Assembly: GCA_947259375.1 (NCBI GenBank)
Contig: CAMYLZ010000032.1
Coordinates: 131,501-195,500, forward strand
Direction: 5' to 3'
Length of the DNA: 64,000 nt
From: an uncultured Parvularculaceae bacterium
GTDB lineage: Bacteria; Pseudomonadota; Alphaproteobacteria; Caulobacterales; Parvularculaceae
The notes under the pieces are model-generated. The model saw only the letters and a program-made list of their open reading frames with translations. It was not told the origin of the DNA and did no database searches. Below are positions 38,897-41,201 of the stretch, piece by piece (the stretch's first letter is position 1; the number at the start of each line of letters is the position of its first letter). The position numbers were made by a program, and so were the translations under genes.

Positions 38897-40117
38897 CTAC
38901 CGATCAATTTCTCCGAAGACAATATCAAGCGAGCCGATGATCGCCGAGACGTCGGCGAGCAGGTGCCCCTTGTTCATCCAGTCCATGGCTTGCAAGTGGG
39001 CGTAGCCCGGCGCGCGGATCTTGCACTTGTAGGGTTTGTTCGTCCCGTCGGAAACCAGATAAACGCCGAACTCGCCTTTCGGCGCCTCGACCGCCGTATA
39101 GACCTCGCCGGCCGGCACGTGGAAGCCTTCCGTATAGAGCTTAAAGTGATGAATAAGGGATTCCATATTCCCTTTCATCTTGTCGCGGCGCGGCGGCGCG
39201 ACCTTGCCGTCGGTGGTCATCACCGGGCCCGGCGTCTCGCGCAATTTGGCGATCGCCTGTTTTATGATCAAGACGGACTGATACATCTCCTCCATGCGGC
39301 ACAGATAGCGGTCATAGCAGTCGCCATTCTTGCCGATGGGAATCTGGAAGTCATATTCGTCATAGGATTCATAAGGCTGCGCCCGGCGCAAATCCCACTG
39401 AATGCCCGAACCGCGGACCATCACGCCGGAAAAGCCCCAGGCGAAGGCTTCTTCCTTGGTGACAACGCCGATATCGACATTGCGCTGTTTGAAGATGCGG
39501 TTGTCGGTGATGAGGGTCTCGATATCCTTCATCTTTTGCGGGAACTGGTCGCACCAGGCGTCGATATCGTCGATCAGCTCGGGCGGCAGGTCCTGGTGAA
39601 CGCCGCCGACGCGGAAATAGGCCGCGTGCATGCGGCTGCCTGACGCGCGCTCATAGAACACCATCAGTTTTTCGCGTTCCTCAAAGCCCCAGAGCGGCGG
39701 GGTGAGCGCGCCCACATCCATCGCCTGCGTGGTGACGTTCAGAATATGCGAAAGGATGCGGCCGATCTCGGAGAATAGCACGCGAATATGCTGGGCGCGC
39801 TTCGGTACTTCGATCCCGAGCAGCTTTTCCGCCGCGAGGCAGAAGGCATGCTCCTGGTTCATCGGCGCCACGTAATCGAGCCGGTCGAAATAAGGGATCG
39901 CCTGCAAATAGGTCTTGTGCTCGATCAGCTTTTCGGTGCCGCGATGCAACAGCCCGATATGCGGGTCGACGCGCTCGACGACCTCGCCGTCCAGCTCGAG
40001 CACGAGACGCAACACGCCATGCGCCGCCGGGTGCTGCGGCCCGAAATTGATTGTGAAGCTCCGCTCAGACGACGCGTCAGAGGTCGAGTCTTCGGGGGCG
40101 ATGTGTCCATCAGCCAT
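38897..40117 (-). CDS. nuoD: NADH-quinone oxidoreductase subunit D
   Basis: A 406-residue subunit of the quinone module, related to the large subunit of NiFe hydrogenases without metal. Motifs include [20 protein letters not shown] (with the quinone-binding His), [60 protein letters not shown] and [20 protein letters not shown]. Length is typical for Alphaproteobacteria. A good ribosome binding site (CCGGAGGCAAATA before the ATG) lies between the start and the inverted-repeat cassette. Confidence 0.98.
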
Positions 40118-40136
40118 TATTTGCCTCCGGCAAAAA

Positions 40137-40600
40137 GCGAATTGAGAGTAGCGAATAGCGAATTGAAAACATCACTGCTCCGAATTTCTGTTTTGTATCG
40201 ATCGAATTAATCCGCGCAGCATCTTGCCCAGCTCGTCGCATTGATCGAGCAGCGGCCGCGCTTCGTTTCCTGCAAGAATGCCTACCCGTTCCGACAATAG
40301 CAGGTGCGTTTCCAGCTCCTTCAACGAGCCTTGTGCGATGCGCAGATGCTGAACGAAAGATCCTGAGTTTTCTCGTCCGTGCCCTTCCGCAATATTGGCC
40401 GAAATTGAAGCGGCGGCGCGACGTATCTGGGAGGTCAGACCAAACATTTCCTCGCGCGGAAACGCGGCGGTCGCACGATAACACGCCTCCGCAAGCGCCA
40501 TTCCAGACTGCCAAACGAGCAGATCCTTGTATGACTGAAATAATCCCTTTGGCGTCATGCATCCCGAGAATCTATTCGCTACTCGCTATTCACTATTCGC
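40137..40600. mobile_element. four-helix-bundle cassette bounded by 30-base inverted repeats
   Basis: The 30-base arms are 40137-40166 (GCGAATTGAGAGTAGCGAAT + AGCGAATTGA) and the reverse complement of 40571-40600 (GCGAATAGTGAATAGCGAGT + AGCGAATAGA). They match at 25 of 30 positions without gaps and are built from AGCGAAT units. They enclose one gene, for a four-helix-bundle protein. The right arm reaches into nuoC and supplies its TAG stop, so the cassette sits exactly at the nuoC 3' end and upstream of nuoD. No transposase is inside, so it would need help in trans. The interpretation as a mobile unit is inference; the repeats are seen directly. Confidence 0.65.
40172..40558 (-). CDS. four helix bundle protein (23S rRNA intervening-sequence type)
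   Basis: A 128-residue all-helical protein. YKDLLVWQSGMALAEACYRA, FGLTSQIRRAAASISANIAE, GHGRENSGSFVQHLRIAQGS and LKELETHLLLSERVGI match the TIGR02436/S23 family, first known from ORFs in 23S rRNA intervening sequences. The family forms pentamers and is related to the bAvd accessory protein of diversity-generating retroelements; the function of stand-alone copies is unknown. It interrupts the nuoC-nuoD pair and is enclosed by inverted repeats. The start has only a weak GGGA upstream. No reverse transcriptase or variable repeat is nearby, so it is not a DGR. Confidence 0.92.
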   Translation of the reverse strand: MTPKGLFQSYKDLLVWQSGMALAEACYRATAAFPREEMFGLTSQIRRAAASISANIAEGHGRENSGSFVQHLRIAQGSLKELETHLLLSERVGILAGNEARPLLDQCDELGKMLRGLIRSIQNRNSEQ

Positions 40601-41201
40601 CAGCTTCAACTTTTTCATCACCCGGCAGCACATATTTCGCGCCTTCCCAGGGGGAGAGATAATCAAAGCTGCGATATTCCTGGACGAGCTTCACCGGTTC
40701 ATAGACGACGCGCTTTTGCTCGTCGTCATAGCGCACTTCCACATTGCCGGTGAGCGGGAAGTCCTTGCGCAGCGGAAATCCCTCAAAGCCGTAATCGGTC
40801 AAAATGCGGCGCAAATCCGGGTGGCCGGCGAAGACGACGCCATACATGTCGAACGCCTCGCGCTCGAACCAGTCGGCGCAAGGATAAACGCCTGTCGCCG
40901 TCGGGATAGTCTCTTCCTCGCCCAACTCCGCCTTGACGCGGATGCGCGTATTGTTGTGCATCGACAGCAAATGATAGACGATGTCGAAGCGCTTTGACCG
41001 ACCGGGATAATCAACCGCCGTCAAATCGATCAGCACCAGGAATTTCGCCAGCGGATCATCGCGCAGAAAGGTTAAAACCTGCGTGATGCGGTCGGCGCGC
41101 GCCTCAACCGTCAACTCGCCATGAACGACCTCGAAGCCGCGAATGTCGGCGTCAATGGATGCGGCGATGTGCTCGCCCAGTTCTTTGAGTTCTTCAGTCA
41201 T
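40593..41201 (-). CDS. nuoC: NADH-quinone oxidoreductase subunit C
   Basis: A 202-residue 30-kDa subunit of the quinone module. The signature [20 protein letters not shown] and [20 protein letters not shown], then [20 protein letters not shown] and [20 protein letters not shown] are conserved. The last codons, GGC GAA TAG, lie inside the right inverted repeat of the neighbouring cassette, so the final residues after LPGDEK are probably not ancestral. The start overlaps the 64-residue gene by eight bases. Confidence 0.97.

Follow-up and report, generated by a model that had tools for sequence, protein, structure and literature searches.

A four-helix-bundle gene enclosed by inverted heptamer arrays at a nuoC-nuoD junction: a candidate mobile cassette

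Results

The cassette and its ends

The window, by which we mean the whole stretch of 64,000 nucleotides analysed here, comes from an uncultured Parvularculaceae bacterium and carries on its minus strand three genes in the order nuoC, a stand-alone four-helix-bundle (4HB) gene, and nuoD. The upstream operon gene nuoC (40593..41201, minus strand) and the downstream operon gene nuoD (38897..40117, minus strand) were identified by reading frame and family match, and both are intact; the 4HB gene (40172..40558, minus strand) encodes 128 amino acids and is recognised by the profiles PF05635, TIGR02436 and NF008911. The image used in a preliminary description of this DNA, that of an operon split without being broken, fits this arrangement.

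The 4HB gene is enclosed by two arms of 30 nucleotides each. The arm on the nuoC side, 5' of the gene (40572..40601, minus strand), consists of about four heptamers, GGCGAAT AGTGAAT AGCGAGT AGCGAAT; the arm on the nuoD side, 3' of the gene (40129..40158, minus strand), holds heptamers in reverse complement, and its array extends with further units to about 40166. A repeat search aligns the two arms as an inverted repeat that is 83% complementary, with matches at 25 of 30 positions, and reports a second register at 40146-40161/40583-40598. Orientation, length, number of matches and AGCGAAT unit are as first described, but the arms are not fixed terminal repeats: they are tandem arrays of AGCGAAT-like heptamers, variable in unit and in copy number.

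Both ends lie close against the neighbouring genes, as had been noticed at the outset. The 3' end of nuoC reads GGC GAA TAG inside the first heptamers, with the stop codon TAG at 40593..40595 (minus strand): one unit supplies the last two codons and the stop. At the other end, the nuoD-side arm adjoins the Shine-Dalgarno sequence of nuoD. By eye, the latter lies in the loop of a small hairpin, TTGCC-GGA-GGCAA (40121..40133, minus strand), that overlaps the end of the arm. Such GGA-loop hairpins holding the nuoD Shine-Dalgarno sequence were also seen by eye at L111, L124, L028, L022 and others, with a stem whose sequence varies between species and whose pairing is kept; they precede nuoD at many occupied loci, not all, and by eye the family's empty junctions showed none.

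The inverted repeat of the window has a score of 20, a value reached by one of 3000 mononucleotide shuffles. When the same arm geometry is placed along the real window, 10 of 633 placements score at least 20, the cassette itself being among the ten. Taken by itself, the inverted repeat is no more than moderately unusual; the weight of the argument comes from the comparison with relatives.

In the host assembly (G000, 32 contigs, 99% complete) a single PF05635 gene was found. The search of this genome for further arms that had been proposed returned, with up to three mismatches, one other inverted pair, which is gene-less, made of AGCGA-type units, and located at C26:20398-20469; the same search gave 17 forward and reverse matches, several of them single and weak, while a reversed pattern used as control gave 7. 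On the minus strand, this gene-less pair of C26 starts directly after the TGA that closes a reading frame of 343 codons. Elsewhere in the assembly, two alike stretches about 1 kb apart (L101; G000:C10:18968 and 20017) each carry a single short AGCGAAT-like array.

The encoded protein

The earlier assignment of the gene to a four-helix-bundle family related to 23S-IVS and bAvd proteins is borne out by profile scores well above the curated cut-offs: 2.5e-36 and 124.6 bits for PF05635 (cut-off 33.8), and 5.4e-36 and 123.1 bits for TIGR02436 (cut-off 24). NF008911 matches at 1e-51. To our knowledge, stand-alone proteins of the PF05635 family have no known job. The closest solved relative is 2gsc (XCC0516; 2e-20); this structure and 2rld, a second solved relative, contain five chains each as deposited. 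There is also a likeness to Avd, with a match to phrog_3206 at 6.4e-9, while the Avd/bAvd models NF033474 and PF22296 give 24.7 and 28.1 bits, short of their cut-offs of 80 and 40 bits. The protein matches PF05635, bAvd and Avd-type families only, and no nuclease or integrase family; among the PADLOC anti-phage defence models, no family matched the gene.

The relatives of this protein are under purifying selection. For ungapped pairs of equal length, with 75-99% identity and dS between 0.1 and 1.5, the median dN/dS is 0.065 (131 pairs, none above 0.5), and it is 0.071 over 32 non-overlapping pairs. Some copies are broken, with internal stops.

With DGRs, the cassette shares a related four-helix-bundle protein, Avd or bAvd (PMC10053308, in its accessible part). 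It differs from them in that its protein stays below the Avd and bAvd cut-offs and that no RVT_1 gene was found in its host (0 PF00078 matches in G000): neither the Avd models nor the presence of a reverse transcriptase in the genome places it among DGRs. One can still imagine a passenger that owes its movement to an enzyme from another place in the genome, either a reverse transcriptase, to which it would be a DGR accessory, or a Y1/RAYT transposase. The three Avd-type scores given above lean this way, as does the fact that, of 11 genomes searched, PF00078 (RVT_1) is above cut-off in three (G358, G366, G249) and PF01797 (Y1 transposase) in four (G314, G249, G010, G001). However, PF00078 has no match in the other eight, including the host, the array-rich G314, G085 and G365, and PF01797 has no match in G026, G030, G085, G358, G365 and G366 and reaches 21.1 bits in the host, below its cut-off of 23. 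No Y1 transposase was found in four searched genomes of the genus g27 discussed below, and of the two loci with a Y1 gene in G314, the one examined (L339, 3273 nt) contains no GGGATTC array, the kind that flanks the 4HB gene of that genome. Since both enzymes are patchy among the genomes, neither is common to those rich in arrays, and we hold a passenger to be very improbable.

Heptamer arrays around related genes

The flanks of the best 80 of 522 loci were fetched for the close relatives. Within these best 80 of 522, the motif AGCGA[AG]T is present in forward orientation at most 250 nt upstream of the gene in 65, and in reverse complement at most 250 nt downstream in 63; it is found in the opposite orientation in none of the 80, on either flank. 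Where this motif is missing, both arms of a locus show a different heptamer, such as GGCGAAT (Methylobacterium L064), GGCAGTA (Shinella L074), GGAGGTC (acidobacterium L062) or a GGGGATT-like unit (Microcystis L098).

A PF05635 search of 299 Pseudomonadota genomes gave 52 with a match, 48 of them above the cut-off, and the flanks of most were added to the set. Period scoring used 130 of 141 loci, the remaining 11 being partial, at a contig edge or without a match, and L181, identical to L180, having been excluded beforehand. The comparison of arms leaves aside L106 and L125, which have the same junctions as L020 and L021, as well as L131 (partial) and L038 and L056 (contig edge). A flank was counted as having a period of 7 nt when its best lag was 7 with at least 70% identity over 35 nt. 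This is the case for 77 upstream and 104 downstream flanks, and for 112 of the 130 loci in either flank, against 1/128 and 0/128 control flanks and 0/130 when scored inside the gene; similar arms do surround other 4HB genes, which the preliminary description had named as support for mobility. Eighteen of the 130 loci are under the threshold in both flanks, among them that of the window (0.68 in both, with best lag 7).

The two arms of a locus belong together. The inverted arm score exceeds the direct one in 121 of the 130 loci, the direct being higher in 8. The inverted score of a locus with its own arms has a median of 24, versus 13 with the arms of other loci; it lies above the 99.9th percentile of shuffles in 94/130 loci (30/51 in the phylum-wide part), and in 100/130 the own arm outscores all partners that have a dissimilar array. 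The unit varies by lineage, while the two arms of one locus are usually alike: a strict count, up to rotation, distinguishes 38 classes of units, many of them one base apart and 28 seen once. In a few lineages the unit has 8 nt (L157, L162, L165, L230, L233, L236, L248, L252 (DAO site); L245-L247), with, for instance, GGGCAGTA in the DAO elements, which stand beside the GGCAGTA elements in the tree, and GAAGAATT. The labels of neighbouring genes used from here on, ACD, HIBADH/HIB, DAO, alphaE, cysD/cysN, accB/accC, gltX, fcl and yebC/ruvC, are presumptive ones, recognised from the translations and not from a family search.

The position of the left array was measured at the nuoCD, HIB, DAO and alphaE junctions, 114 loci in all, 12 of which gave no array call. 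Its start lies at a median distance of 0 nt from the upstream stop codon (quartiles -6 and +5), and within -14..+6 of it in 79 of the 102 loci for which an array could be called.

Two other measures did not separate the cassettes from their controls. In RNA folding, applied to every second locus, own and foreign arms behave alike, with at least 12 arm-arm pairs in 59/65 and 54/65 cases respectively; the test of co-directional neighbours is not discriminating, because the other-strand control also gives 106/158.

One locus, L174, has a 4HB gene with one internal stop and no visible heptamer arms, between GGAGAACGG and CCGTTCTCC. We considered an insertion in a tRNA, a tmRNA or another Rfam RNA, and rejected it: ARAGORN found no such gene in L174, and Rfam, at the gathering threshold, has no match in 11 loci, L174 included.

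Occupied, empty and otherwise filled junctions

For 63 of the 80 close relatives (best 80 of 522), ranging from Parvularculaceae to Hyphomicrobiales, the site of the 4HB gene is the nuoC-nuoD junction. In the family of the window, 28 nuoD loci from 31 genomes were read, a junction being called empty when its gap is shorter than 50 nt. Eight of these junctions hold a 4HB gene, the window included, nine are empty, eight hold a GFA-like gene, and three are of other kinds (L116, L127, L131). The genus of the window alone offers 4HB genes whose arms are of two kinds (L105 and L106 versus L111), an empty site (L107), GFA-like genes (L109, L112) and a mixed site (L131). The preliminary description had expected empty sites among relatives if the cassette is mobile, and named as evidence to the contrary a cassette that every relative has at this one position, its arms decaying; with 9 of 28 junctions empty and 8 of 28 carrying a 4HB gene, the first pattern is the one observed, together with other inserts.

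The case of L111 deserves a closer look. Among six congeners, its NuoC is the closest to that of the window (89%), and its 4HB protein is just 58% identical to the window's; the best matches of the L111 protein are L122 and, in genus g27, nuoCD elements with units of the GTG type.

The GFA-like gene is a second, unrelated insert at nuoC-nuoD, seen in L108, L109, L112, L115, L118, L121, L129 and L132. It stands close behind nuoC, shows no heptamer arms in the ends displayed, and was confirmed by PF04828 for L108 and L112. L110 has both a GFA-like gene and a 4HB gene. In L131 (G001), the end of a 4HB gene lies just 5' of nuoC, a GFA-like gene follows nuoC, and a gene-less inverted heptamer pair enclosing a GC-rich hairpin precedes nuoD.

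A second junction was read in genus g27, which is Mesorhizobium-like by its elements alone. Among the 30 best-matching of 61 ACD-HIBADH junctions, 17 are empty (gap of 27-33 nt), 8 have a 4HB gene in GGCAGTA arms, and 5 are intermediate; the intermediate ones include gene-less inverted pairs, with an 8-mer in L222 and AGTAGTG in L198. The same junction, within one genus, is thus host to 4HB cassettes with 7-mers and to a gene-less pair with an 8-mer. At this junction L220 has a different palindromic insert, ATGCATGTCG...CGACATGCAT.

Other junctions with a 4HB gene bear the labels HIB, DAO, alphaE, cysN, accC, gltX, fcl and ruvC. Outside these lineages, recurrent positions of 4HB genes are before cysN, gltX and fcl (L170, L175, L177, L182; L150, L151, L156, L160; L136, L138, L139, L142, L144), labels that come from matching typed neighbour peptides, so the favoured junctions differ by lineage. 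At the yebC-ruvC junction, G249 has a 4HB cassette (L158), and G314 has a pair that lacks the gene (L328).

No target-site duplication is visible by eye, the borders of the arrays varying between species, and none of the compared junctions catches an insertion event directly. Two candidates for recent transposition were discarded. The loci L180 and L181 of G249 show no difference in the whole 3324 nt retrieved, which indicates a segmental duplication, and they are not counted as transposition; the two copies on Calothrix plasmids both lie inside a longer shared segment. As for carriers, the phage sequence collection gave no match, and 21 plasmid records matched; the ten genera named among the matches listed for these records we take to be cyanobacteria.

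Arms follow the protein

The frequency of the nuoC-nuoD site agrees with a rival explanation: the 4HB gene and its arms could be an old resident of alphaproteobacterial nuo operons, vertically inherited and often lost. The arms would form a hairpin with a part in processing or translation, and template switching and slippage would maintain their complementarity on the spot; swaps would be short homologous replacements between relatives. Such repair in place could keep arms alike, and the phylogenetic tests are accommodating. Approximately unbiased (AU) tests on 61 of the 63 nuoCD loci having all three proteins do not reject the host clades for the 4HB protein (p 0.26-0.79); neither the genus of the window (p 0.10) nor its family (p 0.065) is rejected, nor are all nuoCD rows of one set taken together (p 0.14), and one grouping alone is rejected, marginally (p 0.043). 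The distances of 4HB and NuoCD are weakly correlated (Mantel r 0.33, 0/999). With AU tests that mostly do not reject, and a lone rejection that is marginal, much of the history of the cassette may be vertical, and the swaps described next could have occurred by short homologous replacement.

What an old resident explains poorly is the behaviour of the arms. Over 79 nuoCD loci, the partial rank correlation of arms with 4HB, given NuoD, is 0.45 (0/999 permutations), whereas that of arms with NuoD, given 4HB, is 0.03 (283/999 permutations): the arm unit goes with the lineage of the protein, and the NuoD of the host does not predict it. The discrete cassette with its own ends of the preliminary description is likewise supported. 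There are 75 pairs of loci in which the NuoD distance is below 0.07, yet the 4HB distance is above 0.33. The extreme is a pair of congeners, L235 and L243, with a NuoD distance of 0.005 over the compared part and a 4HB distance of 0.45. Both have their element at nuoC-nuoD, with different units; their NuoD proteins are 99.5% identical and their 4HB proteins 55%. At the level of DNA, identity is 91% over the 600 nt up to the nuoC stop, 66% in between, and 95% over the 1000 nt from the nuoD start.

Elements from other sites also sort with units. With unit groups defined after a first tree, the alphaE-site elements group with the nuoCD elements of AGCGART-type units (support 95/96), and the HIB elements, with the 7-mer GGCAGTA, cluster with the DAO elements, with the 8-mer GGGCAGTA (support 100/98). 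A resident of the nuo operon leaves unexplained these groupings, the use of the further junctions listed above, and the sharing of ACD-HIBADH by 7-mer cassettes and an 8-mer gene-less pair. Purely vertical residence ranks behind the mobile reading because arms and protein differ together on near-identical NuoD backgrounds, and because the unit, across sites, is what elements group by; we judge it unlikely.

The comparison establishes the discreteness of the cassette, its placement at a stop codon, the existence of empty, occupied and swapped sites, and the tracking of the protein lineage by the arms.

Pairs of arrays without the gene

Genome G314 has a 4HB gene with GGGATTC-type arms, located before accC. 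Among the places listed, which are fewer than the 131 counted, its arrays form 14 pairs of neighbours less than 500 nt apart in the order '+ then -', and none in the order '- then +'. The 4HB cassette accounts for one of the 14; the 13 others have interiors of 17-154 nt, too short for a 4HB gene. Two neighbours lie on the same strand, of which one (C11) is an artefact of the handling of overlapping matches in a single run; the counts of 14 and 0 are unaffected. In several gene-less pairs the first array begins, by eye, at a stop codon, and no interior sequence shared among them was seen. An array of three GGGATTC units, with at most one mismatch, occurs in 4 of the 299 genomes, with 61 overlapping matches in G314, one each in G093 and G120, and five in G176; a PF05635 gene is present in G093 and G120, and G176, with its one array, has no PF05635 match.

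In genus g27, GGCAGTA arrays are found at many places. They occur in 12 of 12 genomes that have a 4HB gene at the HIB site, versus 16 of 25 that do not; the 16 include G373 and G329, where no PF05635 gene was found. Leaving out the cassette's arms, the median number of overlapping matches is 22 with a HIB-site 4HB gene versus 5 without (p 0.003 in a rank test that ignores kinship; 3e-4 when the cassette's own arms are counted). The owner of the gene-less pair L222, G366, has a single PF05635 match, which belongs to an intact element at the DAO site whose 8-mer is of the kind seen in the pair; in G371, the owner of L198, the unit of the pair does not match that of its own 4HB element.

The preliminary description had held that arms occurring widely without the gene would tell against mobility. 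Genomes other than the host do contain such arms, yet they form inverted pairs oriented like the cassette, and this makes them better read as gene-less derivatives than as unrelated repeats. Sequence comparison establishes, in addition, the lineage-specific units alike in both arms, the same orientation of the gene-less pairs, and the purifying selection.

Repeats with a unit of 7 nt, like that of the 4HB arms, have been described elsewhere. The accessible text of PMC4692102 reports, for GGGAATC arrays in Xanthomonas, 70 and 75 inverted convergent pairs, mostly between co-directional genes, near stop codons, on the sense strand and mostly transcribed, with generally no association with mobile elements and rather stable surroundings; the same text gives few pairs of GGGGAYT repeats in Nostoc, and the corresponding part of PMC4679880 describes TAACTGA repeats in Beggiatoaceae. 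The difference lies in interpretation, since in these portions the repeats are treated as G-quadruplex-forming or regulatory (PMC4692102, PMC4679880). The terms '23S', 'S23' and 'four helix' have 0 occurrences in both articles, and 'xcc0516' has 0 in PMC4692102. A search of the literature outside subscription journals found nothing that links PF05635 genes with heptamer repeats, and the consulted passages of articles found under names of the PF05635 family do not mention heptamer arms.

The repeats might then come first. Heptamer pairs could be gene-end hairpins, useful to the host or neutral, such as REP-like stabilisers or terminators of mRNA, and the 4HB protein a host RNA-binding regulator, encoded inside one pair and bound there as autoregulation, in which case the cassette would not be mobile as a unit. 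This would suit the gene-less pairs that outnumber the 4HB cassette in G314, the many places of GGCAGTA arrays in g27, the arrays that persist in some genomes where the 4HB gene is missing, the strong purifying selection on the protein, and the location near stop codons, transcription and stable surroundings of the GGGAATC arrays (PMC4692102, accessible text). It is at odds with the patchy presence of the gene within a genus, with the joint difference of protein and unit at one junction on near-identical NuoD backgrounds, and with the grouping by unit of elements from different sites. We find it quite unlikely, more so than an old resident.

Discussion

Known systems

A close likeness is with intervening sequences (IVS) of 23S rRNA that have an S23p ORF. 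Like these, the cassette measures about 430-460 nt, holds a single ORF of the S23p/4HB family between complementary ends that can pair into a long stem, and is seated in a transcribed, essential gene unit that it does not destroy. It differs in that it lies outside rRNA, between the protein genes nuoC and nuoD; its ends are lineage-specific heptamer arrays, and gene-less pairs occur elsewhere in genomes. The Coxiella IVS, of 428 nt with an S23p ORF, provides a further contrast: the available part of PMC4990558 describes reductive evolution of this ORF, whereas the ORFs of the window's relatives are under strong purifying selection.

The REP/REPIN-RAYT systems consist of a gene flanked by repeats and of many gene-less inverted pairs near gene ends, the RAYT being a Y1 nuclease; RAYT proteins spread REPINs in trans. 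The repeat-flanked gene, the gene-less inverted pairs of the repeat and their location near gene ends are common to both. The differences are that the gene between the window's repeats is of the PF05635 family, not Y1, and that its arms consist of 7-nt units in tandem, where REPs are palindromic. Dispersed gene-less pairs, as expected of REPINs, are found in the related system of G314; the genome of the window has only one such pair.

A proposed explanation

It is thus natural to conjecture, and we consider it rather probable, that the window contains a mobile cassette resembling the IVS of 23S rRNA, whose 4HB protein partners its own arms and which has REPIN-like gene-less derivatives. It would be one copy of a widespread compact element of mobile type, composed of a single gene and two complementary arrays of 7 nt, or 8 nt in some lineages, with an Avd-like and probably pentameric 4HB protein. 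The element sits where a gene within an operon has its stop codon: its first array unit rebuilds the upstream stop and its other end spares the downstream Shine-Dalgarno sequence, so that the operon reads on. The cassette would then presumably need no promoter of its own, and its RNA may form a long hairpin like that of the 23S-rRNA intervening sequences.

From the joint change of protein and arms, and from the kinship with Avd, we infer that the 4HB protein recognises its own heptamer array. This pairing would keep the unit together and let gene-less pairs spread in trans. Movement itself would rely on enzymes of the host or of other elements, since the cassette holds only the 4HB gene and no nuclease or integrase was matched. 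The mobility proposed by the preliminary description is probably right.

A wider conjecture can be made, to which we give slightly less than an even chance. The stand-alone PF05635 genes found across bacteria would represent the autonomous part of a single class of mobile elements of a 'heptamer-bracket' type. A 7- or 8-nt array specific to each protein lineage would be recognised by the proteins of that lineage, and protein and unit would co-evolve. The heptamers of Xanthomonas, cyanobacteria and others would be, at least partly, gene-less offspring, and the elements would settle at operon-internal stop codons, often with a built-in stop.

Meaning of the comparison

We know of no agreed origin for the heptameric repeats of several bacteria. 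The comparison joins this puzzle with that of the 4HB genes: heptamer repeats form the ends of the 4HB cassettes, and a genome with the gene has gene-less pairs of this kind at scattered places. The main extension is that these ends are lineage-specific arrays paired with the protein, with like gene-less pairs in at least one gene-bearing genome. That rRNA IVS with S23p ORFs originated in a 4HB-type cassette that landed in an rRNA gene is a guess. In harmless bacteria, Mesorhizobium, Rhizobium and Methylobacterium among them, each protein lineage with its unit gives a defined set of partners.
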